Assembly (NCBI GenBank): GCA_014879565.1
Contig: JACSRW010000034.1
Coordinates: 1 to 64,000 of the forward strand
Length of the DNA stretch: 64,000 nucleotides
DNA from: Chitinophagaceae bacterium
Lineage (GTDB): Bacteria > Bacteroidota > Bacteroidia > Chitinophagales > Chitinophagaceae
Direction: 5' to 3'
Positions within the stretch are counted from its first letter, which is position 1; every line of letters starts with the position of its first letter. Of this stretch, positions 913 through 42,038 are shown in pieces. The position numbers and the translations under genes were made by a program. A model generated the notes under the pieces. It did not search any database. It was not told the origin of the DNA and saw only the letters and a program-made list of their open reading frames with translations.

Positions 913-2601
913 TCATTTGTTCCGGAAGTATCTTTCCCGGAGAAAGCGGTCATCCCCGTAGACATCATCATAAAATACCAGATTTCCTTTTTGCCCCTCA
1001 CAGGTAAAATACCGCAGAAAAACAGGCACCCGGTTGCGGAGGCTGATTGTTCTTTTCTGCTTATGTTTGAGCCAGTATTTTACAGAATCCGTCCGGGCCA
1101 CCCCCTTTCCTCCATTTAGCACGCTGTCGCTTTTTAAAAGATCCCAGGCCAGTTTATCCCATTCCTGCACCCGCACACAACCATGACTGAGGGAACGCAT
1201 CGCATTGGCAAAAAGATAGCGCTGATTCGTATCATGTAAATAAACAGCAAACTTGTTCTCAAACACAAATTTCATGATACCCAATGCATTAGCATCCCCG
1301 CTACCCTGCACAACCCGGTAAGGGATAGATTTTTTGTATTTGGACCAGTCAACCGTATATGGATCCACTTCATTGCCGTCCTTATCCAGCAGACTGAACC
1401 CTTTTTTTGCCAGGTAACCGGGATTTCTTTTTACCGCCGGCAGTATTTCCTTTTCAATAATACTGGCTGGTGGCACCCACTGCGGATAGGTTATCAGGGC
1501 ATAAATGGCACTGTTTAGTAAGGGGGTCCTGGTTTTGGGCTTGCCGGTGATCACACGGGAGCGGATTTTCACTACCCCGCTGTCTGTTAACTCCATATAA
1601 TTTCCGGAAGTATTAACCAGGATATACCGGTCCGGCATTTTAACAGGAAACTGTTTGTACTTATCCAAACTGATGGCTATCCGGGCAAATCGCTCCCGGT
1701 CATCAAGATTAAGCATACGCACCGTTCCCTCTCCGGCTTTTCCGTCAACCGTGATATTATTTATTTGCTGAAATTTTTTTACTGCAGCAGCCAGGTTTGC
1801 GGAATCAAGGGCGATACTGTCCTGACTGACCAGCCCTTCTTCAAAAAGCCTTTTTTGCAGAAGCCGGTTAAACTGCCGGGTATCCTTCATCGGAAAGGGT
1901 AGTTTGGTATATACGGCAAAACGGGCCCTTGCGAGAAAGGAAGGAAGCGCTTCCTTCAGTTGCCGGTAACCAGCTATACCGGGTTCGAGGTTTTTTATCA
2001 GGGCCCTGATTCCCTGCTTTTCAAGCAGGTTTACCTGCGATATAAGAAAACTGTCGGTAAGCAGGGTATCCTTCCTCAGTGTCACACTGTCAAAAGGCAA
2101 TCTTCCCAGTTTTACATCTTTGATCAGCCGGAAAATAGCATCCGTTGAATACAAGTCAGCCAGTCCCCACCAGCGGGCATCCCGCCGATCCGATTTACCC
2201 GTACTGTCGGCCAGGATGGTATCTCTTATTTGTGTAAGGGGGGTATAAAAATAATCCTCCGGGTAAAGTCCGAATAATTTTGCTTCCCTGATGAACTGCC
2301 AGAGTGAATCCGCCCTGTTTTCCCATTTCATATCCCGGCTCCAGAACGCAGTGTCGGCCCGCATTTTATAAAAATCCCGCAGTAGTTCCGGGAATGCCAG
2401 CACACCGGCTGAATCCGGTAAACGGCCACTGTTGGCAACCGCCTGGTCAAGCTGAAAACGGAGAAAACTGCTGATTTTTTGTTGGAGTTCGGCCGGGTCA
2501 GCAGCAACCGTATCAGGAGGCTGCCCTTTTCCCTTACAGGAAAAAAGAATAATACCAGCCAGCAAAAGCCGGATTAAAGGGTACTTGTTTGCGGAATACA
2601 T
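913..2601 (-). CDS. L,D-transpeptidase (YcbB/ErfK type), lipoprotein
   Basis: This is a 562-residue murein L,D-transpeptidase, expected to form 3-3 peptidoglycan cross-links or attach proteins to peptidoglycan in the periplasm. The start at 2601 was chosen because it gives a short lipoprotein signal (IRLLLAGIILFSC, lipobox LFSC). An upstream in-frame ATG at 2649 would bury that signal. An N-terminal scaffold region is followed by a peptidoglycan-binding-like helical segment near residues 270-310 (FQQINNITVDGKAGEGTVRML). The YkuD catalytic domain covers about residues 330-500, with the motif SHGCVRV and nucleophile near C474. The size fits the large YcbB-like subgroup. It lies 126 nt downstream of the DUF952 gene at the end of the aromatic run, and no clear terminator separates them. 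Confidence 0.9.
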   Translation of the reverse strand: MYSANKYPLIRLLLAGIILFSCKGKGQPPDTVAADPAELQQKISSFLRFQLDQAVANSGRLPDSAGVLAFPELLRDFYKMRADTAFWSRDMKWENRADSLWQFIREAKLFGLYPEDYFYTPLTQIRDTILADSTGKSDRRDARWWGLADLYSTDAIFRLIKDVKLGRLPFDSVTLRKDTLLTDSFLISQVNLLEKQGIRALIKNLEPGIAGYRQLKEALPSFLARARFAVYTKLPFPMKDTRQFNRLLQKRLFEEGLVSQDSIALDSANLAAAVKKFQQINNITVDGKAGEGTVRMLNLDDRERFARIAISLDKYKQFPVKMPDRYILVNTSGNYMELTDSGVVKIRSRVITGKPKTRTPLLNSAIYALITYPQWVPPASIIEKEILPAVKRNPGYLAKKGFSLLDKDGNEVDPYTVDWSKYKKSIPYRVVQGSGDANALGIMKFVFENKFAVYLHDTNQRYLFANAMRSLSHGCVRVQEWDKLAWDLLKSDSVLNGGKGVARTDSVKYWLKHKQKRTISLRNRVPVFLRYFTCEGQKGNLVFYDDVYGDDRFLRERYFRNK

Positions 2602-2727
2602 AATCGGGATGGGTTTACGCCCGTTAATGGTTTGATGGTTCCCAGCCAACGACAGCCGGTACTACAAAATACTCATTTGGCCCGGCATTCCCTCTTTCCG
2701 CTACCTGATTTTTTACGGAGTAAATTT

Positions 2728-3027
2728 TCAGACAGGATCGGCTTTCAGTACCGCATCTGTATTTAACGGACCGTATATGTGGGGAAATTCTTCCTGTACA
2801 GAAGGGGCCAGGTCATATTGCAAACGGGATTTCAGCCTGGCGGTATCTATTGTCAGGAGTAATAAATCCGGCTGACCGGAAAAATACCTTTCCAGCACAC
2901 CCTGAACCTGCGACTTTTCCGCGCAATGGATAAATCCCTCTGCGGCGAGGGAAGGGTGTTCATAAAATCCTGTCTCAAGAGCACGGCTCCAGGACTGTCC
3001 GGACGTAACATGGTAGATGAGCGCCAT
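2728..3027 (-). CDS. DUF952 family protein
   Basis: This 99-residue soluble protein matches the DUF952 pattern. It opens with IYHVTSGQSW, contains SLAAEGFIHCAEKSQV around residues 26-42, and carries the late motif FPHIYGPLN. The family is small, widespread in bacteria and without an established reaction. The cysteine in FIHC and the IYGPL motif are its hallmarks. Its ATG overlaps the aroC stop in a TGATG arrangement, so it is probably translationally coupled to the shikimate genes. Nothing in the sequence connects it to aromatic synthesis. Confidence 0.85.
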   Translation of the reverse strand: MALIYHVTSGQSWSRALETGFYEHPSLAAEGFIHCAEKSQVQGVLERYFSGQPDLLLLTIDTARLKSRLQYDLAPSVQEEFPHIYGPLNTDAVLKADPV

Positions 3028-4019
3028 CAGAAAATTTTTTTTATCCGTTGTTCAAGAAGCATACAGTCAGCCAGCACCAGGGCTGTAACCGCCTCAACAA
3101 TCACCGGAGCCCGGAGCGCCACACAGAGATCATGCCGGCCCCTGATGGTAAATTTTTCCACCTGACCCGTTTCCCGGTTAAGGCTTTCCTGCTCTTTAGG
3201 TGTGGAAGAAGTGGGTTTGACTGCCAGCCGGAAAACCAGCTCATTTCCATTCGTAATGCCACCCACCACACCACCCGCATGATTACTGCGGGTACGGCCA
3301 TCTGCATCTTCTATCGCATCGTTATGCTCACTGCCAAACATCTCGGCAGCCGCGAATCCGGTTCCGAATTCAACTCCCCTTACCGCGGGTATGGCGAATA
3401 ATATATGGGCCAGCAGGGATTCCAGGGAGTCAAAATAAGGTTCACCTAATCCCACCGGCACCCCGGATACCCTGCATTCAACAATCCCTCCCACAGAGTC
3501 TTTGGCGTCAATTGCTTTCTGCAGTCCTTTCTCCAGATCTTTCTCCCCGCCTATTGCTGTCACCAGGGCATTGATTTGTATGTCCGGCATCAGTTTTTTG
3601 GCAATAACCCCGGCAGCAACCAGACCGGTGGTGAGACGGGCACTGAAATGCCCGCCGCCCCTATAATCTTCATGACCGCCGAACTTTTGGCTGGCCACCC
3701 AATCAGCATGACCCGGCCTGGGTATACTTCGCTGGCGGCTGTAATCTTCACTGCGGGTATTTGTATTTTCAAAAAGGATTGTCAGTGGAAATCCGGTTGT
3801 TTTCCCGTTAAACAACCCGCTCCGGAATAAAGGATAGTCCGGTTCCTGACGGGGTGTTGTGCCTTTTTGTTTACCGCCTTTTCTTCTTTCGAGGTCGGTC
3901 AGCAGATCCTCTTCGGTCAGTGGCAGACCGGCGGGGCAACCGTCAATCGTAACCCCGACAGCTTCCCCGTGTGATTCTCCAAAAACGGACACCCTGAATA
4001 AACGGCCAAATGAGTTCAT
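3027..4019 (-). CDS. aroC: Chorismate synthase
   Basis: AroC converts 5-enolpyruvylshikimate-3-phosphate to chorismate with reduced FMN as cofactor, the last shikimate step. The 330-residue product begins with the family signature RLFRVSVFGESHGEAVGV, contains RPGHADW near residue 100, and has RSNHAGGVVGGITNG near residues 240-255. It ends at RIKKIF, slightly shorter than the usual 350-360 residues. It lies 8 nt after aroA in the same leftward operon and overlaps the following DUF952 start by one base. Confidence 0.97.
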   Translation of the reverse strand: MNSFGRLFRVSVFGESHGEAVGVTIDGCPAGLPLTEEDLLTDLERRKGGKQKGTTPRQEPDYPLFRSGLFNGKTTGFPLTILFENTNTRSEDYSRQRSIPRPGHADWVASQKFGGHEDYRGGGHFSARLTTGLVAAGVIAKKLMPDIQINALVTAIGGEKDLEKGLQKAIDAKDSVGGIVECRVSGVPVGLGEPYFDSLESLLAHILFAIPAVRGVEFGTGFAAAEMFGSEHNDAIEDADGRTRSNHAGGVVGGITNGNELVFRLAVKPTSSTPKEQESLNRETGQVEKFTIRGRHDLCVALRAPVIVEAVTALVLADCMLLEQRIKKIF

Positions 4020-4027
4020 GTCACGGT

Positions 4028-5323
4028 TTATAAATTAAATGATGCAAATGGATGGGTCAGTTTCGCTCCCAATTTTTCAAGATCCCTGAAAAATCCCGGA
4101 TAAGATTTGTTTACGGCATTAGCCTGTTCAATCACCACAGGACCATCTGCCCTGAGTGCCGCTACGGCACAGGCCATAGCGATCCGGTGATCGTGATGTG
4201 AATGCACGCTTGCACCTGTAAGCCCCTGCCCGCCGTAAACCCGCATCAGGTCTCCCTCAATTTCAATCTTAAGTCCCATTTTCCCAAATTCTTCCTGAAG
4301 TGTGAGTGCCCGGTTACTTTCTTTATGGGCCAGCCGGGAAACCCCTTTTATGGACGATATCCCTTCGGCGTAAGCAGCCAGTGCCACCAGGGGCGGAAAA
4401 AGATCCGGGCAGTCGGTCGCATCAAAATCAAACGCGGTGAGCGGAGAAGGATGCAGATGAATGCCCTTGGTATCCATGGCCATCCCGGCATTTGCGCGCA
4501 GGAGGGCATCCAGTATTGCTTTATCCGCCTGGGCGGAAAGAGGATCCAGGCCACGTACGGTTACAGGACCGGCCAGCACACCCGCCACCAGAAGGAATGC
4601 GCCACCGCTCCAGTCACCTTCCACCGTATAATTCACCGGTGAGCCGGAAACGGGAAGGGCTTCTCCCGCATGAAAAATAAACTTTTCATAACTTCTGTTT
4701 TCCGGAACCTTCAGTCCGAATTTGCGCATAACATCCAGTGTCAGATCAATATAAGGACGGCTTCTGAGATTATGGACCCGGATGCTGACTCCGGAAGCGC
4801 CGGCAGCGGCATAGGCCATGAGTAAACCGGTCAAAAACTGGGAACTGAGTGAGCCGTCAACTTCAATGGTCTGCGGCTGCAGCGGGCCCCTGAGTTTTAT
4901 GGGTAAGCGGCCCTGGCTGGTTTCCACAGCAACCCCCAGACGGGGTAAAATTTCATCAAAAAAATCCATTGGCCTGCTGACAAGACTGCCGGTCCCGCTG
5001 ATCGTAATCGCTTTTCCCGACAGCGCTGCAAGCGGTGTAAACATCCGGATACTGAGCCCGCTTTCGCCACATTGAATTTCATCTTTTACCGGATTTATCC
5101 CCCGGCTGCTTACCACCAGCAATTCACCCTTGTCTTCCAGACTGGCGCCAAGCCGTTCAATGATATTGACAGCTGCCTTATCATCATTGCTGTGTCCGGG
5201 ATTGTGAATATGCGATTCCCCCTGACGGATCAGGGCAGCTGCACAGGCACGCTGCATGGAACTTTTTGATGCCGGGGCCTGTACCGGTCCGTTAAGCCGT
5301 GAGGGATGTATAGTTATTACCAC
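4028..5323 (-). CDS. aroA: 3-phosphoshikimate 1-carboxyvinyltransferase (EPSP synthase)
   Basis: AroA transfers enolpyruvate from PEP to shikimate-3-phosphate. The product has 431 residues. Near the N-terminus it has the substrate-binding segment PASKSSMQRA and later SGLSIRMFTPLAAL. The C-terminal half has HKESNRALTLQEEFGKMG and DHRIAMACAVAALRA. The GNAGT-type loop of well-studied homologues reads GESGLSIRM here, a known divergent form in this phylum. The gene follows aroB with a 1-nt gap and precedes aroC by 8 nt, so the three form a tight unit. Confidence 0.96.
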   Translation of the reverse strand: MVITIHPSRLNGPVQAPASKSSMQRACAAALIRQGESHIHNPGHSNDDKAAVNIIERLGASLEDKGELLVVSSRGINPVKDEIQCGESGLSIRMFTPLAALSGKAITISGTGSLVSRPMDFFDEILPRLGVAVETSQGRLPIKLRGPLQPQTIEVDGSLSSQFLTGLLMAYAAAGASGVSIRVHNLRSRPYIDLTLDVMRKFGLKVPENRSYEKFIFHAGEALPVSGSPVNYTVEGDWSGGAFLLVAGVLAGPVTVRGLDPLSAQADKAILDALLRANAGMAMDTKGIHLHPSPLTAFDFDATDCPDLFPPLVALAAYAEGISSIKGVSRLAHKESNRALTLQEEFGKMGLKIEIEGDLMRVYGGQGLTGASVHSHHDHRIAMACAVAALRADGPVVIEQANAVNKSYPGFFRDLEKLGAKLTHPFASFNL

Positions 5324-5324
5324 G

Positions 5325-6344
5325 TCAGATTGCTTGTATTATTTTTTCGAGTTGACGGAGAGCTATTTTATGCACAGATCCTTTACCAATCCGGTCAAGC
5401 AGGATATAGTGCATATCTTTTTTCTCCCTTTTTTTATCCATTTTCAGAATAGAAAAAACTTTTCCCTTATCAAATTGTGCATACGCCGGCAAGCCGTACT
5501 GTTCCAGGGTTTTCACCACTTTCTCTGTTTGCCTGAAACCGGTCAGTTTTTCCGAAATATGACAGGCATACGTCATCCCAATCGCTACTGCCTGGCCATG
5601 CAATAGTTCATATTGTGTTTCCAGGGCATGACCAAGCGTATGCCCGAAGTTCAGCATTCGCCTTTCCCCTTTTTCAAATTCGTCTTTCTTCACCACACTT
5701 ATTTTGATAAGGGCATTTTTCTCAATAAGGCTGCTTAACTTTTTGGGCTGACTGCGGAATACCGGCAAATCTGCTTCGCTGAGTTCAGTAAACAGGCCGG
5801 CACTTTTTATAGCGGCATGTTTAATAATCTCCGCAAACCCATTGGACCATTCCTGTTCGGGCAGACTCCGGAGCAGGGAGAGATCATGTAAAATAAAAGA
5901 AGGTTGCCGGATGACGCCGACCATATTTTTATAGGGCCCCACATCAATCCCGTTTTTGCCGCCAATAGAGGCATCCACCAGTCCGAGTATGGATGTGGGG
6001 ACAAAACCAAAACGGATACCCCGCATATATACAGCGGCAATATAACCGGCCAGGTCTGTCACTACTCCGCCACCCACACCCACCAGGGTGAACTTACGGT
6101 CAGCTTCCATCCGGATCAGTTCTTCCACCACGGCATCCACTGTTGACTGCACTTTATATTCTTCCCCGGGTTTAAGCACAATGGTATTCCAGCCGCTGAA
6201 CAGTTTTGCATGCGCCTTGTACACATGTTCATCGGTCAGCAGTACAGCCGATTTAGGATCCGCGATTTTGCGTAAATAGCCAAACCGGCCGGAAAAATAA
6301 AAATCCGTGGATCCCCCCGAAAACCTGGCTGTAATTTTTTTCAT
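5325..6344 (-). CDS. aroB: 3-dehydroquinate synthase
   Basis: AroB closes DAHP to 3-dehydroquinate, an NAD- and metal-dependent reaction and the second shikimate step. The 339-residue protein shows the family segments GVGGGVVTDLAGYIAAVYMRGI (about residues 90-111), PTSILGLVDASIGGKNGID, and the metal-site region MLNFGHTLGHALE. Its length is typical of compact bacterial AroB. It lies 90 nt downstream of the DAHP synthase gene, and that gap is almost entirely a heptamer array. The aroA start follows its stop after one base. Confidence 0.96.
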   Translation of the reverse strand: MKKITARFSGGSTDFYFSGRFGYLRKIADPKSAVLLTDEHVYKAHAKLFSGWNTIVLKPGEEYKVQSTVDAVVEELIRMEADRKFTLVGVGGGVVTDLAGYIAAVYMRGIRFGFVPTSILGLVDASIGGKNGIDVGPYKNMVGVIRQPSFILHDLSLLRSLPEQEWSNGFAEIIKHAAIKSAGLFTELSEADLPVFRSQPKKLSSLIEKNALIKISVVKKDEFEKGERRMLNFGHTLGHALETQYELLHGQAVAIGMTYACHISEKLTGFRQTEKVVKTLEQYGLPAYAQFDKGKVFSILKMDKKREKKDMHYILLDRIGKGSVHKIALRQLEKIIQAI

Positions 6345-6365
6345 ATACTTCTTATACTAAATACC

Positions 6366-6435
6366 ATTGCACATTGCCTATTACCTATTGCCTATTGCCT
6401 TTTGCCTACTACCTATTACCTATTACCTGTCACCT
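6366..6435. repeat. Tandem heptamer array, ATTGCCT/ATTACCT type, ten units
   Basis: Ten consecutive 7-base units in perfect register (mostly ATTGCCT and ATTACCT, with TTTGCCT, ACTACCT and GTCACCT variants) fill the aroF-aroB gap. The array runs into the aroF stop codon at 6435-6437. Seven similar arrays lie elsewhere in the window. Confidence 0.9.
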
Positions 6436-7523
6436 TAACTATCCAGCACTTTCTTCTGATGGTTAATACTTTCCATATGCACCACATCCAGGTAGCGGGT
6501 AATAAATTCCTTACTCAAGCCCACTTTCTCTCCTTTGGCGGTGGCTCTTTCTATGATTTCATTCCAGCGGGTGGTCTGCAGAATGGTAATATTGTTGTCC
6601 TTTTTATATTGCCCGATCTGTTCGGCTATTTTCATTCTTTGTCCGAGTATCTGCATCAGTTCATCATCCAGGTGATTGATTTTTTGCCGCAATGCCTCCA
6701 GGGCTGCATGGTATTCTTCGGAATTTACATCTTCTCTTCTCCAGATAATCTGATCCAGCATTTCCGCCAGTTTTTCAGGTGTTACCTGCTGTTTGGCATC
6801 ACTCCAGGCATGATCGGGATCTATATGGCTCTCTATCATAAGCCCGTCATAATCCAGGTCAATGGCTTTTTGCATGACTTCCAGCAGAATATCCCTTCTG
6901 CCGCAGATATGGGAAGGGTCATTGATCAGCGGCATACCCGGATATTTCAGTTTCATATCAATAGCCAGGTGCCACATTGGTGCGTTCCGGTATTCACTGT
7001 TGCCGTAGGAACTGAAACCCCGGTGAATGAGACCGATTTGTCTGACTCCTGCGCGGGCCACCCGTTCCACTGCCCCACCCCACAATTCCAGATCGGGGTT
7101 GATGGGGTTTTTGATCATAACCGGAACATCCACACCTCTTAAGGCATCCGCCACCTCCTGTACACTGAAGGGGTTTACCGTTGTACGGGCCCCGATCCAG
7201 AGTACATCCACGTCAAAAGTAAGTGCATCCTGTACCTGCTTTCCGGTTGCCACTTCAACGGTTGTGGGCAGGCCGGTCAGTTTTTTAGCCTGCTGGAGCC
7301 AGGGCAATCCTTTGGCACCGATCCCTTCAAACATCCCGGGTTTGGTACGGGGTTTCCAGATTCCTGCGCGCAGCATATCCACTTTGCCGGTGGCCGCCAG
7401 CCGCTGGGCAGTAGCCAGTACCTGTTCTTCAGTTTCCGCGCTGCAGGGGCCGCTGATTATCAGTGGACGTTTATGCCAGGCTGCCTGCACTTTCTCTTTC
7501 ATGGTTTGTTCCGTTGTTTGCAT
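6435..7523 (-). CDS. aroF: Bifunctional DAHP synthase (type I-beta) / chorismate mutase
   Basis: This 362-residue fusion covers the first shikimate step (PEP plus erythrose-4-phosphate to DAHP) and the chorismate-to-prephenate step. Residues about 10-265 are the DAHP synthase/KDO8P-synthase-like barrel, with SGPCSAE, LRAGIWKPRTKPGMFEG, GARTTVNP, KNPINPDLELW and NDPSHICGRRD. Residues about 270-362 are an AroQ-type chorismate mutase, with EALRQKINHLDDELMQILGQR and a C-terminal helix. In this family the mutase domain often mediates feedback control. The ATG at 7523 is only 4 nt after a TAnnTTTG box. If transcription starts there, either this codon is used leaderless or the next ATG at 7502 is the start. 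Confidence 0.95.
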   Translation of the reverse strand: MQTTEQTMKEKVQAAWHKRPLIISGPCSAETEEQVLATAQRLAATGKVDMLRAGIWKPRTKPGMFEGIGAKGLPWLQQAKKLTGLPTTVEVATGKQVQDALTFDVDVLWIGARTTVNPFSVQEVADALRGVDVPVMIKNPINPDLELWGGAVERVARAGVRQIGLIHRGFSSYGNSEYRNAPMWHLAIDMKLKYPGMPLINDPSHICGRRDILLEVMQKAIDLDYDGLMIESHIDPDHAWSDAKQQVTPEKLAEMLDQIIWRREDVNSEEYHAALEALRQKINHLDDELMQILGQRMKIAEQIGQYKKDNNITILQTTRWNEIIERATAKGEKVGLSKEFITRYLDVVHMESINHQKKVLDS

Positions 7524-7527
7524 TGTA

Positions 7528-7535
7528 CAAATTTA
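7528..7535 (-). promoter_or_regulatory. Possible internal -7 element TAAATTTG before the DAHP synthase gene
   Basis: The minus strand reads TAAATTTG, then TACA, then ATG. It matches TAnnTTTG and could give the DAHP synthase, aroB, aroA and aroC genes a promoter independent of the leader-controlled one upstream of pheA. No -33 TTG is found at 20 bp. Confidence 0.4.
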
Positions 7536-7582
7536 ATTATTTATGATCACTGTATTTTGATTACGTTTCTCCGGGTGTTTCT

Positions 7583-8434
7583 TCAGCGGATAATCCGCCG
7601 GATTTTATTGGCTTCTTCAATCAGGTTTTTCAGCTCATCCGCTTTTTCTTCCTGTATACAATCCCTGAATCGTTTCAGCTGTTCAATATGTTCGTTCAGC
7701 ACATCGAGAACATTCTCTTTATTCTGCAGAAAAATAGGCACCCACATGCTCGGATTACTTTTGGCCAGCCTGACGGTACTTTCAAAACCGGCCGAAGCCA
7801 GTTCAAATATGGCATTGTCTTCTTTTTCTTTCTGCAAAACCGTATTGGCAAGGGCAAAGGAAGTGATATGGGATATATGACTCACATAAGCGGCATGAAG
7901 ATCATGGGCACCGGCTTCCATCTCCAGCTGCCGCATGCCAATTTTTCTGAACATACCTTTTACCCAGTCCAGTACATCCGCATCGGTTTGCTCTGTATTA
8001 CAGAATATGACCGCTTTGTTTTCAAAAGCGCCCTTCACTGCCGAAGCCGGACCGCTGTATTCCGTTCCCCACATCGGATGGGTTGCACAATACCTGCCTC
8101 TCTTTTCATGATGCTTCACCGCCTCCGCGAGTTGTGATTTCGTGGATCCCAGGTCAAGGATAATCTGATCCTTTACCCGGTTCAGGATCACGGGCAACAG
8201 GTTTACCATCCTGTCAACCGGTATAGCAAGAATGATCACCTCCGCCAGGTCGATGGCTGTTTCCAGGGGCAATATTTCATCCACTAACTCCAGTTCAAGG
8301 GCTTTCGCCGCATGCACAGGATCTGTTTCCACCCCAATCAGGCGGGAGGATAATTTTTTTTCATGTAACTGAAGGGCCATAGAACCACCGATCAGCCCCA
8401 CTCCCACAATGGCAATTTTTTTCCTGTCTGTCAT
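7583..8434 (-). CDS. tyrA: Prephenate dehydrogenase
   Basis: TyrA oxidises and decarboxylates prephenate to 4-hydroxyphenylpyruvate on the tyrosine branch. The 283-residue product opens with a Rossmann motif (IAIVGVGLIGGSMA), followed by ILAIPVDRM and LDLGSTKSQL. The catalytic-region histidine motif is ATHPMWGTEYSGP near residues 115-127. A longer open frame extends upstream, but those residues overlap the aminotransferase gene. The ATG at 8434 is 1 nt after the aminotransferase stop and begins exactly at the conserved fold. No ACT domain is present. Confidence 0.94.
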   Translation of the reverse strand: MTDRKKIAIVGVGLIGGSMALQLHEKKLSSRLIGVETDPVHAAKALELELVDEILPLETAIDLAEVIILAIPVDRMVNLLPVILNRVKDQIILDLGSTKSQLAEAVKHHEKRGRYCATHPMWGTEYSGPASAVKGAFENKAVIFCNTEQTDADVLDWVKGMFRKIGMRQLEMEAGAHDLHAAYVSHISHITSFALANTVLQKEKEDNAIFELASAGFESTVRLAKSNPSMWVPIFLQNKENVLDVLNEHIEQLKRFRDCIQEEKADELKNLIEEANKIRRIIR

Positions 8435-8435
8435 A

Positions 8436-9599
8436 CTATCTTTTTTTAAGGGCTTTGTTGATACGGCTGATCGCTTCCTCAATTTTTTCTTCCGGCGCAC
8501 AGAGGCTGATCCGGACATATTTTTTTCCGGCTTTCCCAAAAATGCCACCCGGTGTAATAAACACCCCGGCCGTATGTAAAATCTCATCACTCAATGCATA
8601 TCCATCGGGGTAACCATCCGGTATACCGGCCCAGAGAAATAAACCGGCCTGCTCATTACTGAACCGGCAACCCAGTATTTGCAAGAGGGATTTGGCTTTT
8701 TCCTTGCGGCCCCGGTAAATATTGTTCAGTTCCCTGTGCCAGTCATTCCCCAGGGTTAATGCTTTGGCTGCAGCCAGCTGAACCGGAAGAAACATACCGC
8801 TGTCCATATTGCTTTTGAAACGTAATACTTCTTCAATCCGCCGGGCCGAACCGCAAAGCACCCCGACACGCCAGCCGGCCATATTGTGGGATTTGCTGAG
8901 TGAATTCAGTTCAAGGACATGCTCCCGGGCCCCGGGTACAGCCAGGAGGCTTTCCGGTTTATCGTTCAGGATAAAGGAATAGGGATTATCATGTACCAGG
9001 AGAATTTTATGCCGTTCAGCGAAACGCACCAGCGAGGAGAACAGACCCGGCAATGGCAGCTGACCTGTCGGCATATGCGGGTAGTTAACAAACATCAGTT
9101 TTACCTTTTTCAGTCCTCTTTTTTCCAGTTTCGCCAAATCCGGCAGATAATTGTTCTTCTCTTTAAGGCTATAAAACACCGGTTGTCCTCCGGCCAGTTT
9201 TACCGCACTCTGATAGGTGGGATAACCCGGGTCGGGCACCAGTACTTCATCACCCGGATTCAGATAGGTCATGCAGATATGCAGTATGCCTTCTTTGCTC
9301 CCTATCAGCGGCAGCACTTCAGTAGCAGGATCGGGCTTTATTCCATACCAGCGGTAATACCATTCACTGAAGGCCTCCCGCAGCGCCGGAGCCCCTTTAT
9401 ACGACTGGTAGGCATGTGTATGAGGTTTTGCCGCTTCTTCCTGCAACACCTTAATCACTTCCGGATGAGGTGGCAGGTCCGGGCTTCCGATCCCCAGATT
9501 GATAATCGCTTTCCCCTGCCTGTTCAGAGTCTCTATCTCCCGTAATTTCTGCGAGAAATAATATTCCCCTATTCCATTCAGCCTTTTTGCAACTTTCAT
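8436..9599 (-). CDS. Class I/II aminotransferase of the Phe/Tyr operon
   Basis: This is a 387-residue PLP-dependent fold-type I aminotransferase. Visible motifs are INLGIGSPDLPPHPEV, the YQSYKGAPALREA segment, VPDPGYPTYQ, VHDNPYSFI, the PLP-lysine segment ELNSLSKSHNMAGWRVG, and a late arginine segment YVRISLCAP. Sequence alone suits an aspartate/LL-diaminopimelate-type aminotransferase. Its position between pheA and tyrA, with one base separating it from tyrA, suggests it transaminates phenylpyruvate, hydroxyphenylpyruvate or prephenate. That substrate assignment is inferred from context. Confidence 0.88.
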   Translation of the reverse strand: MKVAKRLNGIGEYYFSQKLREIETLNRQGKAIINLGIGSPDLPPHPEVIKVLQEEAAKPHTHAYQSYKGAPALREAFSEWYYRWYGIKPDPATEVLPLIGSKEGILHICMTYLNPGDEVLVPDPGYPTYQSAVKLAGGQPVFYSLKEKNNYLPDLAKLEKRGLKKVKLMFVNYPHMPTGQLPLPGLFSSLVRFAERHKILLVHDNPYSFILNDKPESLLAVPGAREHVLELNSLSKSHNMAGWRVGVLCGSARRIEEVLRFKSNMDSGMFLPVQLAAAKALTLGNDWHRELNNIYRGRKEKAKSLLQILGCRFSNEQAGLFLWAGIPDGYPDGYALSDEILHTAGVFITPGGIFGKAGKKYVRISLCAPEEKIEEAISRINKALKKR

Positions 9600-9639
9600 A
9601 TAGGTTATCTGATTATTTTAAAATTCACTCTACCCCCTG

Positions 9640-9688
9640 CTAACTTCTAACTACTAACTTGCATCTCCTGTCTCCCGTCTCCTATTTC
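9640..9688. repeat. Tandem heptamer array, CTAACTT and CTGTCTC types, ending in the pheA stop
   Basis: The units CTAACTT, CTAACTA, CTAACTT, GCATCTC, CTGTCTC, CCGTCTC and CTATTTC follow one another in register. The last overlaps the pheA stop codon (9682-9684). Two unrelated heptamer motifs share one 7-bp phase. Confidence 0.75.
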
Positions 9689-10512
9689 CACACGCCTCTT
9701 TTATATACGCCGTACACTTTTATACCGGCAGTCAGAGGTCTTATCTCTTTCAGTACGTCATTAAATTGTTCCGGCTGGTCAAATTCCATATCAGCGTGAA
9801 AGGCATATTTAAAATCAGAACCCGGAATCGGGAAACTCTGCAGTTTGCTGAGATTAATCCCGTTTTCGGCAATCCGGGTTAATACCCGGGCCAGACTGCC
9901 GCGGGAATGATCGGTATGAAAGGTCAGGGAAGCCTTATCAGCGCCGTCAACGGGTGAAATGGTTTCTTCGCGCTGCAGCATCAGAAAACGGGTATAGTTA
10001 TTTTTCAGGGTATGAATATTCGGAACAAGTACATCGAGCTGATAGAGTTCTGCCGCAAGCCGGCTGGCTATTGCAGCTACATGCCGGCTTTTATGCTGGT
10101 GAATATGTCTGGCACTCAGCGCGGTGTCATCCGTTTCCACCAGTTTCCATTTATGTTTATCCAGGAAATCATAACACTGCTGCAGGGCCATCGTGTGCGA
10201 ATGCACTTCACGGATATCCTCCAGTTGTACGCCTGGGTTTACGAGCAGACACTGCCGGATCTGCAAATAGATCTCCCCGGCAATGGTCAGGTTGCTTTTC
10301 TGCAGGAGATTATAGTTCGGAAGAATGCTGCCGGCAATCGAATTTTCTATAGCCATCACAGCTCCGTCAGTTTCTTTTTTACCGGAAGCCACCTGTACCA
10401 CTTCCCGGAAAGTATCACAGGGAATTACCTGTACGCTTTTTCCGTAAAAAAGTCGGGCAGCTACCTGGTGAAAGCTTCCCTCATACCCCTGAATGGACAC
10501 TCTTTTCTGCAT
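9682..10512 (-). CDS. pheA: Prephenate dehydratase
   Basis: PheA converts prephenate to phenylpyruvate. The 276-residue protein has the dehydratase domain in residues 1-180 (YEGSFHQVAARLFYG, AIENSIAGSI, the ALQQCYDFL helix, NYTRFLML). A C-terminal ACT domain covers about 195-270 (GSLARVLTRIAENGINLSKLQS). In the ACT domain the ESRP motif known to matter for phenylalanine feedback reads QSFP. It is the first structural gene after the Phe/Tyr leader peptide and hairpin, so expression is probably controlled by attenuation. A heptamer array begins at its stop codon. Confidence 0.95.
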   Translation of the reverse strand: MQKRVSIQGYEGSFHQVAARLFYGKSVQVIPCDTFREVVQVASGKKETDGAVMAIENSIAGSILPNYNLLQKSNLTIAGEIYLQIRQCLLVNPGVQLEDIREVHSHTMALQQCYDFLDKHKWKLVETDDTALSARHIHQHKSRHVAAIASRLAAELYQLDVLVPNIHTLKNNYTRFLMLQREETISPVDGADKASLTFHTDHSRGSLARVLTRIAENGINLSKLQSFPIPGSDFKYAFHADMEFDQPEQFNDVLKEIRPLTAGIKVYGVYKRGVWK

Positions 10513-10603
10513 ACCTACTTATTAATAACTTTTCAAAATGGCTGAGTCGTCCGGTGCCTCCTGCGGTATCATCCTGCGAATGAATACCGGTCTGACCTAA
10601 AAC

Positions 10604-10632
10604 AAGGATCCCGGCCTTTGGCCGGGATCCTT
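10604..10632 (-). terminator. Attenuator terminator hairpin of the Phe/Tyr operon
   Basis: A perfect 13-bp stem (AAGGATCCCGGCC with GGCCGGGATCCTT) encloses a 3-nt loop. On the minus strand it is followed by TTGTTTT, as expected of an intrinsic terminator. It lies about 20 nt after the stop codon of the leader peptide and 92 nt before pheA. Nine bases of its first arm (20-28 of the 106xx block) are also exactly complementary to 10676-10684 inside the leader-peptide gene. An alternative antiterminator pairing is therefore possible. Confidence 0.88.
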
Positions 10633-10652
10633 TATGTTGTCTTGAACGTTTC

Positions 10653-10742
10653 TCAGTTTTTTTGCAACAAAAGCAATCCCGGCCTCTTTCCAAAAAAGAA
10701 GTAATAAAAATAGAAACCAAAAAAGGATTGCATTGTCGTCAT
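10653..10742 (-). CDS. Phe/Tyr-rich leader peptide (pheL-like attenuator peptide)
   Basis: This 29-codon frame has not been annotated by length-based methods. It reads MTTMQS, then FFGFYFYYFFF, then GKRPGLLLLQKN. Ten of the eleven codons 7-17 are Phe (7) or Tyr (3). It is the pattern of a ribosome-stalling leader peptide, like E. coli PheL, placed before a Phe/Tyr biosynthesis operon. Segment 1 (CAATCC, codons 5-6, 10725-10730) pairs with segment 2 (GGATTG, 10674-10679). Segment 2 (GGCCGGGAT, 10676-10684) also pairs with the first terminator arm. Translation may start at codon 1 or at Met4 (10733). Confidence 0.85.
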   Translation of the reverse strand: MTTMQSFFGFYFYYFFFGKRPGLLLLQKN

Positions 10743-10746
10743 GCTA

Positions 10747-10777
10747 CAAATGTAATGTAACCGGGTTGTTCTTCCAA
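10747..10777 (-). promoter_or_regulatory. Promoter of the Phe/Tyr leader and operon: TTG-N20-TACATTTG
   Basis: On the minus strand a -33 TTG (10775-10777) is separated by exactly 20 bp from the -7 element TACATTTG (10747-10754). The leader ATG follows after 4 nt. If the element is centred at -7, transcription starts at or next to this ATG, so the leader peptide is read leaderless or from Met4. Confidence 0.7.
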
Positions 10778-10790
10778 CAGAGAGCAATAA

Positions 10791-12452
10791 TTATTTTCTT
10801 TTTCCGCCGGCTTCCGCATCATTCATCCTGATTTTGCGGCCCCGGAAATTTTTCCCGTCCAGCGCCTTGATCATTTTCTTAGCCGCAGCATGCTCCACTT
10901 CCACCCAGCTGTTGAGCTCTTTCATATCAATACGGCCAAGTACATCCTTCCGGAGATCACTCATATCCAGAATAAACTGAAGAAAACTGGCCTTGTAGAA
11001 ACCATCCTTTGTTCCCAGGTTTACAAACAGTCGTTGATAATTGATTTTCTCTCCGCCAAAACTCCGGCCTTTTGTATCTCTGGATTGCGTACGTTCTCCG
11101 GACTTTTCAGTTTTACGGGAACCTTCCCGGACGTTCAGATCCACCGCATTTTCATAATATTTCAGGAAGCGGTCAAATTCAAGGGCTGCAACCCGTTGCA
11201 GGATTTCTTCCTTTTCCACATCCGCAAATTTCTCGCGGAGCAGTGGTACATAGGTCTCATATTCCCCGTTACTGATATCTGCCTGCAGCATTTTATCGAT
11301 AAAATGGAAGAATTGTTTCCGGCATACATCCTTTCCGGCAGGTATATCCAGTTTATGAAAAGTATTTTTTACCAGTTTTTCGATTTGCCTGAGCCGGTAC
11401 TGTTCACGGGGTGTAACCAGGGCTGCGGAGATACCACTTCTCCCTGCCCGTCCGGTTCTCCCGCTCCGGTGGGTATATACTTCAATATCATCCGGCAGTT
11501 CATAATGAATCACATGGGTGATACCCTGCACATCAATTCCCCGGGCCGCCACATCGGTGGCTATAAGCAACTGGAGACTCTTCTCCCGGAAACGGGCCAT
11601 TACCTTATCCCGTTGAGCCTGGGTCAGGTCACCATGCAACGCCTCAATATCATACCCTTCCCGGATGAGTGATTCGGTAATCTCCTGGGCATCGGCTTTG
11701 GTACGCGTGAAAATGATACCATATATACCGGGATTGAAGTCAATGATCCGTTTCAGCGTCTCGTACCGGTTGCTGTGCTGGGTGAGATAATACTGGTGGT
11801 CAATATTGGCATTCCCTGCATTCACTTTTCCGATCGTGATCTCAAAGGGATTTTCCATATACCGCTTGCTGACCTGCCGGATTTCAGGGGGCATGGTCGC
11901 GCTGAACAGCCAGGTACTTTCCCGGGCCGGCGTATTTTTTAAAATAAACTCAATATCTTCCTTGAAACCCATATTGAGCATTTCATCTGCTTCATCCAGC
12001 ACCACATAATGAATCTGCTCCAGGTTGACCGCCTTTCTTTCAATCAGGTCAATCAGCCGGCCAGGGGTGGCTACAATGATATGCGTGCCTTTTTTCAGGT
12101 CCCGGATCTGCATACTGATGGATGTTCCGCCATAAACCGCCGTTACCTGTACCGGGATTTTTTTGCTTTTGAATTTTTCAAGGTCGTTACTGATCTGCAG
12201 GCATAATTCCCGGGTGGGACATATAATCAGCGCCTGCGGATGTTTTTGTGCCTTATCAATCAGCTGGAGCAGGGGCAGACCGAATGCCGCTGTTTTACCG
12301 GTACCTGTCTGTGCCAGTCCCACAAAATCGCGGGTTCCCTGTAATAAAACGGGTATGGCTTTTTCCTGTATGGGCGTGGGTTGGGTAAACCCTAATGCTT
12401 CAATACTGTGCAGCAGGCCTTCTTCAATACCCAGATCCTGAAATGTTATCAC
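10791..12452 (-). CDS. DEAD-box RNA helicase with DbpA-type C-terminal RNA-binding domain
   Basis: This 553-residue ATP-dependent RNA helicase carries all the main motifs: Q motif (FTQPTPIQEKAIP), Walker A AQTGTGKT, PTRELCLQI, VLDEADEMLNMGF, LFSATMPPEI, ATDVAARGIDVQG and HRSGRTGRAGRSG. After a charged linker, residues about 470-550 form a DbpA-like RNA-binding domain (INYQRLFVNLGTKDG and later WVEVEHAAAKKMIKAL). This matches the CsdA/DeaD group, which acts in ribosome assembly and cold adaptation; the exact role is inferred. It lies upstream of the Phe/Tyr leader on the same strand, which has its own promoter. Confidence 0.95.
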   Translation of the reverse strand: MITFQDLGIEEGLLHSIEALGFTQPTPIQEKAIPVLLQGTRDFVGLAQTGTGKTAAFGLPLLQLIDKAQKHPQALIICPTRELCLQISNDLEKFKSKKIPVQVTAVYGGTSISMQIRDLKKGTHIIVATPGRLIDLIERKAVNLEQIHYVVLDEADEMLNMGFKEDIEFILKNTPARESTWLFSATMPPEIRQVSKRYMENPFEITIGKVNAGNANIDHQYYLTQHSNRYETLKRIIDFNPGIYGIIFTRTKADAQEITESLIREGYDIEALHGDLTQAQRDKVMARFREKSLQLLIATDVAARGIDVQGITHVIHYELPDDIEVYTHRSGRTGRAGRSGISAALVTPREQYRLRQIEKLVKNTFHKLDIPAGKDVCRKQFFHFIDKMLQADISNGEYETYVPLLREKFADVEKEEILQRVAALEFDRFLKYYENAVDLNVREGSRKTEKSGERTQSRDTKGRSFGGEKINYQRLFVNLGTKDGFYKASFLQFILDMSDLRKDVLGRIDMKELNSWVEVEHAAAKKMIKALDGKNFRGRKIRMNDAEAGGKRK

Positions 12453-41835: not shown

Positions 41836-41891
41836 ATCAGTGAAACAGCATGCTGAATCACTGATTCCCAATGTCTGCCCTCCGGCAGACA
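41836..41891 (+). other. Two stable hairpins preceding the TPP aptamer
   Basis: The first (41836-41865) is ATCAGTGA, AA, the palindrome CAGCATGCTG, AA, TCACTGAT, symmetric over 30 nt. The second (41872-41891) is an 8-bp stem TGTCTGCC/GGCAGACA with a CTCC loop. They are not part of the standard aptamer. They could insulate its folding, protect the 5' end or bind a protein. Confidence 0.6.
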
Positions 41892-41893
41892 GG

Positions 41894-41973
41894 TTTCCCG
41901 GGGTGTTTCCGTATGAACGGAATCTGAGATCATACCCGTAGAACCTGGTCAGGGTAATGCCTGCGAAGGGAAG
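41894..41973 (+). promoter_or_regulatory. TPP (thi-box) riboswitch
   Basis: The conserved thi-box is complete. P1 pairs TTCCC (about 41895-41899) with GGGAA (41968-41972), followed by GGGGTG. A variable arm TTCCG/CGGAA comes next, then CTGAGAT (41924-41930), ACCCG, GAACCTGGTCAGGGTAATGCC and the closing GCGAAGGGAA. It senses thiamin pyrophosphate. Downstream GTTTCCC (42001-42007 region) can pair with the 3' strand of P1, a possible switch; that part is inference. It controls the following TonB-dependent receptor. Confidence 0.93.
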
Positions 41974-42038
41974 GAATGTTCTGAAGTCCTTTCTCCACAG
42001 CGTTTCCCTCTTATTTTTTAAACCAAAAAAATTAAAAA

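Follow-up and report, generated by a model that had tools for sequence, protein, structure and literature searches.

The window, by which we mean the whole stretch of 64,000 nt analysed here, carries on its reverse strand a run of genes for aromatic amino acid biosynthesis that begins with pheA. The region under study, on the same strand, is bounded by a DEAD-box helicase gene, whose last base is 10791, and by the start of pheA at 10512. Its features and the genes downstream of it are as follows:

10777-10747 (-): predicted promoter, with TTG at 10777-10775, a 20-nt spacer and the -7 box TACATTTG at 10754-10747
10742-10653 (-): leader peptide ORF MTTMQSFFGFYFYYFFFGKRPGLLLLQKN, 29 codons and a stop, from the ATG at 10742 to a TGA ending at 10653
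10741-10724 (-): segment 1 (codons 1-7), 5' arm of an anti-antiterminator, paired with 10680-10663 in the predicted fold
10684-10665 (-): segment 2, within the leader ORF, pairing with segment 1 or segment 3
10639-10620 (-): segment 3, 3' arm of the antiterminator, its 3' part being the 5' arm of the terminator
10632-10604 (-): sequence-predicted intrinsic terminator hairpin (segments 3:4), perfect 13-bp stem, loop AAA, GTTTT after it
10603-10598 (-): T tract GTTTTA 3' of the hairpin, as read from the sequence
9682-10512 (-): pheA, prephenate dehydratase, first gene under the proposed control (PF00800, E 4.7e-57)
8436-9599 (-): class I/II aminotransferase (PF00155)
7583-8434 (-): tyrA, prephenate dehydrogenase (PF02153, PF20463), ATG at 8434; the ORF list alternatively holds a longer GTG form reaching 8590
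6435-7523 (-): DAHP synthase fused to chorismate mutase (PF00793, PF01817)
5325-6344 (-): aroB, 3-dehydroquinate synthase (PF01761, PF24621)
4028-5323 (-): aroA, EPSP synthase (PF00275)
3027-4019 (-): aroC, chorismate synthase, end of the shikimate run (PF01264)

Codons 7-17 of the leader ORF hold 7 Phe and 3 Tyr codons within 11 codons, so that the counts given for this 29-codon frame in an earlier note on the same DNA were confirmed by the sequence, as were the two signals that the note had placed on either side of it: a promoter ending 4 nt upstream of the ATG and a perfect 13-bp terminator stem 20 nt past the stop. The upstream signal TACATTTG is a Bacteroidota -7 box, the motif TAnnTTTG being the sigma-A -7 box according to the available text of PMC9723704, and from its position the 5' end of the transcript is predicted to lie at or very near the leader ATG. 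Such a concentration of Phe and Tyr codons is rare by chance: when 81 upstream regions were each given 5 dinucleotide shuffles, at least 7 Phe/Tyr codons in a 12-codon window occurred in 4 of 405 shuffles and at least 8 in none of them, compared with 10 in the best window of the leader studied here. The 143-nt leader folds far better than its shuffles (z = -5.74), which is mostly owed to the terminator (z = -1.48 once the terminator is taken away), and it gave no match at gathering score to any of the 4227 families of Rfam 15, leader and T-box families included. Two Rfam matches fall in the window, a tRNA and a TPP riboswitch (41889-41988 (+), 64.4 bits), and both lie outside the leader.

By their Pfam assignments, the downstream genes make the same two amino acids, Phe and Tyr, that the leader would sense. 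Among the best 80 of 471 confirmed relatives (see below), an aminotransferase gene follows pheA in 80/80 and tyrA is present in 78. A consensus scan of both strands of 2600-10850 returned 13 terminator-like sites against 10.4 in shuffles, the longest of them being the leader hairpin with 13 pairs and the next longest having 7. The scan lends weak support to the run from pheA to aroC being a single transcript.

Conservation and alternative pairings in close relatives

Relatives were collected by scanning genome contigs with PheA, which gave 471 confirmed ones; the best 80, with identities of 70-86%, were retained and are thus close relatives. Their records bear the names Chitinophagaceae, Chitinophagales, Sphingobacteriales, Bacteroidota or Bacteroidetes, or those of genera such as Terrimonas and Niastella. 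The search that the earlier note had proposed, for a Phe/Tyr-rich leader with a terminator ahead of pheA in relatives, was positive throughout this set: each of the 80 loci has an ORF with at least 7 Phe/Tyr in 12 codons upstream of pheA, and in each a GC-rich, terminator-like hairpin follows 15-43 nt past the leader stop; in L062 and L066 the hairpin end is poor in T (fewer than 6 among the 12 nt surrounding the end of the stem). Together with the window, these loci give 81 cores with 972 codons in all, 756 of them TTY or TAY and none TTR. A high Phe/Tyr content was the criterion by which the cores were chosen, and no ORF can contain TAR, so that the informative part of this pattern is the absence of TTR; from this codon pattern, the leader may be translated. 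Both residues are present in 81/81 cores, which bears out at the level of sequence the mixed Phe and Tyr sensor that the earlier note had proposed. A strict TAnnTTTG box stands 4-7 nt before an in-frame start in 63/80 relatives of this best-80 set and at other gaps of 0-15 nt in a further 11, and none was found upstream of the leader in 6.

Pairings were counted on a MAFFT alignment of 79 sequences, comprising the window and 78 of the 80 loci (L003 and L012, near copies of L002 and L007, were left out), and the shuffle controls for covariation keep the kinship among loci in place. The earlier note had proposed complementarities of 13 bp for 3:4, 9 bp for 2:3 and 6 bp for 1:2; the first stood, while the antiterminator extends over about 19-20 bp (10684-10665 with 10639-10620) and the predicted 1:2 helix joins 10741-10724 to 10680-10663. 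The first half of segment 2 is a repeat of segment 4. For the antiterminator, which pairs GGCCGGGA.U.CUUUUGUUGA with UCAACAuAAAGaAUCCCGGCC, 89.7% of cells are paired compared with 30-53% when the arms are slid. Of its 19 pairs, 11 carry double changes, in 37 cells altogether, where shuffling gives 5.7 pairs and 11.8 cells and slid versions give 6-9 pairs and 10-23 cells. Covariation is tested more cleanly by the outer helix of the antiterminator (columns 98-103 with 131-136), which is no part of the terminator, than by the inner half, where segment 3 serves both structures; in the outer helix 3 of 6 pairs show double changes, one of them from G-C to A-U in 9 sequences. The 3:4 terminator is paired in 93.1% of cells and has 42 double-change cells (14.2 shuffled, 3-17 slid), distributed over 7 pairs (3.9 shuffled, 3-8 slid, with one slid version reaching 8). 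In this alignment, the predicted 2:3 antiterminator covaries and excludes the terminator, and the predicted 3:4 terminator covaries as well, so that compensatory changes in segments 2-4, which the earlier note had suggested looking for, are found for 2:3 and 3:4. The 1:2 helix with its ACAAAAGCAT-type arm is paired in 81.9% of cells against 43-54% slid, and covariation was not found for it in the 79 sequences (5 pairs and 11 cells; shuffled, 4.3 and 6.3; slid, 4-7 pairs and 8-19 cells); we regard the predicted 1:2 pairing as conserved and not as proven by covariation.

Exchanging arms between species weakened the pairings only slightly (own arms stood at percentile 0.515 for 1:2 and 0.66 for 2:3), a weak test given that the segments are so alike. 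Inspection by eye combined with duplex folding revealed altered arms that still pair in L013, L031, L038, L044, L045, L056, L057, L070 and L079. In L045 (Ilyomonas limi), L057, L070 and L079, segment 2 differs and segment 3 carries matching changes; in L045 the stop of the leader ORF precedes segment 2.

Leaders of other operons and range of the pheA leader

The same genome has leaders before hisG, trpE and ilvD, each with a run of the cognate residue and then a terminator. The His leader MRTHTHMHHHHLLLQG is found on contig C42, immediately ahead of hisG (match at 88459; about 1222-1272 of locus L141), with the box TATATTTG 8 nt upstream and the terminator GGCTTAC/GTAAGCC. On contig C1, a Trp leader with WWW (MKRIQTNKLWWWHTTLKGL) and a terminator lies upstream of trpE (match at 386929; L142), and an Ile/Val leader with the run IIIVVVIIII lies upstream of ilvD at C1:328365-328489 (-) (L143, L147), its run being followed by GGAGG and a terminator containing CCTCC. 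Among the top 30 loci per gene from 40 genomes of the family, a His leader precedes hisG in 26/30, a Trp leader precedes trpE in 30/30 (28 with a script-called terminator) and an Ile/Val leader with terminator precedes ilvD in 10/30. When one set of thresholds was applied to all four genes, leaders of each residue class were counted as follows:

pheA (best 80 of 471), of 80 loci: Phe/Tyr 80, His 0, Trp 1, Ile/Leu/Val 3
hisG (top 30), of 30 loci: Phe/Tyr 0, His 26, Trp 1, Ile/Leu/Val 0
trpE (top 30), of 30 loci: Phe/Tyr 0, His 0, Trp 30, Ile/Leu/Val 0
ilvD (top 30), of 30 loci: Phe/Tyr 0, His 0, Trp 2, Ile/Leu/Val 12

This match between leader and operon, a matter of sequence comparison, is the strongest single argument for the proposed sensing of amino acids. 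The mixed Phe and Tyr sensor, which the earlier note thought would be notable in Bacteroidota, has company in its own genome, where hisG, trpE and ilvD have leaders rich in their own residues. The promoter box lies 5-10 nt upstream of 17/26 His leaders, its strict form was seen with only 8/30 Trp leaders, and the four Ile/Val leaders with a box have it at gaps of 18-31 nt.

Further pheA loci beyond the close relatives came from two PF00800 searches. At class level, 30 of 39 matches were sampled, among them the own locus together with two loci from its family and one from its order. An ORF with at least 6 Phe/Tyr of 12 codons was present in 19 of these 30 loci, 15 of the 19 having a script-called terminator, and the script found no leader in the other 11. 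In 14 of the 15 class leaders with terminator, the 2:3 pairing exceeded that of 95% of shuffles, and in places their sequences are wholly different, as in the AATCCTGAT hairpins of L121 and L124. These counts depend on a script that requires a clean stem: L125, L132, L133 and L135 were scored as lacking a terminator despite a visible hairpin with mismatches, and L122, where a weaker ORF (5 Phe/Tyr) precedes a CCCGG hairpin, was counted as without leader. In the phylum outside this class, a Phe/Tyr-rich ORF before pheA was found in 0/29 loci, an uneven sample drawn from the 30 best-scoring genomes out of 258 that gave a match. A covariance model of the leader, R1, found no second copy at a good E-value in the own genome. 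The next match had an E-value of 1.23, and a weak match at 1.85 is the ilvD leader; two other weak-match loci (L145 and L146) were rejected, the script finding no boxed short ORF there.

From this distribution we tentatively draw a wider picture, in which Bacteroidia would have a suite of attenuators for Phe/Tyr, His, Trp and partly Ile/Val, with the Phe/Tyr and most His leaders beginning no more than a few nucleotides from the 5' end of the transcript, so that ribosomes would initiate on near-leaderless RNA, and the pheA leader acting as a two-amino-acid sensor of a shikimate supra-operon. We had put the chances of this picture at even and now place them slightly below that, since the near-leaderless start does not extend to all leaders.

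A proposed switch and its rivals

We hold with considerable confidence that the pheA leader is a ribosome-mediated transcription attenuator sensing Phe and Tyr. The reading draws on the ORF, its Phe/Tyr codons, the mutually exclusive pairings, the covariation of 2:3 and 3:4, the conservation, the content of the operon and the leader-operon match. In the course of events that we infer, transcription would begin at or just before the leader ATG, and a ribosome would begin the leader while RNA polymerase moves ahead. With charged Phe- and Tyr-tRNA plentiful, the ribosome would pass the Phe/Tyr codons and segment 2 and reach the stop; its footprint there and, after its release, the 1:2 pairing would hold segment 2 away from segment 3, so that the 3:4 terminator could form and transcription would end before pheA. 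If Phe-tRNA or Tyr-tRNA ran short, the ribosome would stall in the Phe/Tyr run and mask segment 1, leaving segment 2 free to form the long 2:3 antiterminator before segment 4 exists, and the Phe/Tyr/chorismate operon would be transcribed. The leader thus very probably lets the cell switch on its Phe and Tyr genes when either amino acid runs short.

The energetics of this switch were explored by folding 81 sequences under ribosome masks covering the first P-site base with 13 nt before it and 14 nt after it (the assumed ribosome footprint), with the gap defined as the difference between the best structure overall and the best structure lacking segment 4. The mean gap is 13.7 kcal/mol without a ribosome and 14.4 with a ribosome at the stop, drops to 5.8-6.7 when one of core codons 0-6 occupies the A site and climbs to 14.7 at codon 11. 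Averaged over codons 2-7, the gap for a stalled ribosome is smaller than the stop gap in 80/81 sequences and smaller than the ribosome-free gap in 79/81, suggesting that read-through would be cheapest while a ribosome waits in the Phe/Tyr run; the 1:2 pairing raises the gap. A point against the proposed switch is that in 54/81 sequences 30 nt separate the start of CCGGG from the end of the leader stop codon, so that a ribosome at the stop would mask only the distal half of segment 2.

Equilibrium folding was rejected as a display of the switch, as it favours the terminator in most sequences for every ribosome state: in 77/81 without a ribosome, in 78/81 with one at the stop, and in 48/55, 50/58 and 65/80 with the A site at core codons 2, 4 and 6. 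Which structure wins must therefore be a matter of timing, as in the accepted view of E. coli attenuators, and the switch would be kinetic. Also against the proposed reading, a transcript that reaches no further than segment 3 already forms the antiterminator in 70/81 sequences without a ribosome and in 65/81 with a ribosome at the stop; for an A site at core codon 0, 2 or 4 the counts are 79, 80 and 80, respectively.

Other readings of the leader differ in how well they survive these data. The attenuator might effectively sense Phe only, or a general slowing of translation, with Tyr codons being incidental; single-residue attenuators are known, and Phe codons outnumber Tyr codons in the 81 cores (mean 5.5 versus 3.8). 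However, every one of the 81 cores holds 2-6 Tyr codons, a mask at any core codon from 0 to 8 lowers the mean gap whatever the residue, the operon makes both amino acids, and the hisG and trpE leaders hold their own residue instead. We consider this reading improbable, and a sensor of both Phe and Tyr the better account. Still less credible is an arrest peptide in which the nascent leader itself would sense free Phe or Tyr, much as TnaC senses tryptophan. Many loci do share a tail of the form K/R-P-G-M/L-LLL after the run, but this tail is frame-shifted in L043, L048, L053 and L058 (SRECFC, KPGSLC, SSRESFC and KPGCFC), the ORF of L045 stops before it, and the pairings account for its conservation; the reading frame shifting through it in those four loci, the tail is kept as RNA and not as peptide. 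That the hairpin merely terminates the upstream helicase gene, which lies on the same strand with its end 48 nt from the leader ATG, and that the Phe/Tyr frame is a U-rich accident is hardly credible at all, as a helicase gene (>50% identity) lies upstream on the same strand in 34 and is absent in 42 of the 76 best-80 loci long enough to judge while the leader is kept in all 76, TTR codons number 0/972, and a promoter box separates the helicase gene from the leader ORF.

Comparison with known systems

The closest model for a Phe and Tyr attenuator of this kind is E. coli pheL/pheA, where a short Phe-rich ORF is followed by alternative 1:2, 2:3 and 3:4 pairings and a terminator before pheA. The leader described here resembles it in its residue-rich short ORF, its predicted 1:2/2:3/3:4 alternatives and its predicted terminator before pheA, and differs from it in lacking an Rfam match at gathering score, in mixing Phe and Tyr, in a start codon that adjoins the promoter box, in a segment 2 that lies inside the ORF well before its stop, and in preceding a whole shikimate run. 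We take it for an attenuator that follows the logic of pheL/trpL, whether or not it shares their descent, and that probably responds to both Phe and Tyr. Within the same genome, the hisG, trpE and ilvD leaders are like it in having a short ORF rich in the cognate residue, mostly followed by a terminator, and differ from it in their residues.

A 2010 comparative study by Lopatovskaya and co-workers, cited in PMC4833913, may hold Bacteroidetes cases. Among the open-licence papers listed by our searches, none dealt with a Phe/Tyr leader in this bacterial group. According to PMC2965389 (2010), whose authors added a case from Firmicutes, demonstrations of such systems had until then, as far as they were aware, been confined to Proteobacteria and Actinobacteria. 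For Bacteroidota, PMC9723704 had already suggested leader-peptide attenuation in one member: in the text available, it reports "strong clues" for such attenuation before amino-acid operons of Flavobacterium psychrophilum, with structured 5' elements before pheA and hisG that are conserved in other Flavobacteriaceae and have no Rfam match. Small ORFs reminiscent of leader peptides are also mentioned for B. thetaiotaomicron in the accessible part of PMC7366714. What makes the predicted near-leaderless start interesting is the scarcity of leaderless or near-leaderless mRNAs in two mapped Bacteroidota transcriptomes, at 5.5% in F. psychrophilum (PMC9723704) and, for 5' UTRs under 10 nt, about 3.7% in B. 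thetaiotaomicron (PMC7366714), as given in the available text of each.

Our analysis adds the anatomy of the leader, its covariation, the mixed sensor, its range and the leader-operon match, and so offers a concrete anatomy for amino-acid control in Bacteroidota, with a two-residue sensor over the common aromatic pathway and named pairings. The alignment and covariance model could be the source of an Rfam-type family, and the short ORFs that were marked are ones that annotation may miss.

Seen against these systems, the leader is of a kind already known and its presence in the phylum had been suggested earlier. It is ordinary in kind, and the comparison of sequences supports the proposed reading well. 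Like S. meliloti (Sinorhizobium meliloti) trpL, as described in the accessible part of PMC7298713, its RNA is predicted to start with the leader ATG, although trpL differs in responding to tryptophan, in belonging to the Alphaproteobacteria and in a leader RNA and peptide that also act in trans. With the F. psychrophilum proposal it shares the phylum, the gene and leader-peptide attenuation as the proposed control of amino-acid operons; the available text of PMC9723704 comes without a leader sequence, a mixed sensor or an antiterminator, and all three are given here.
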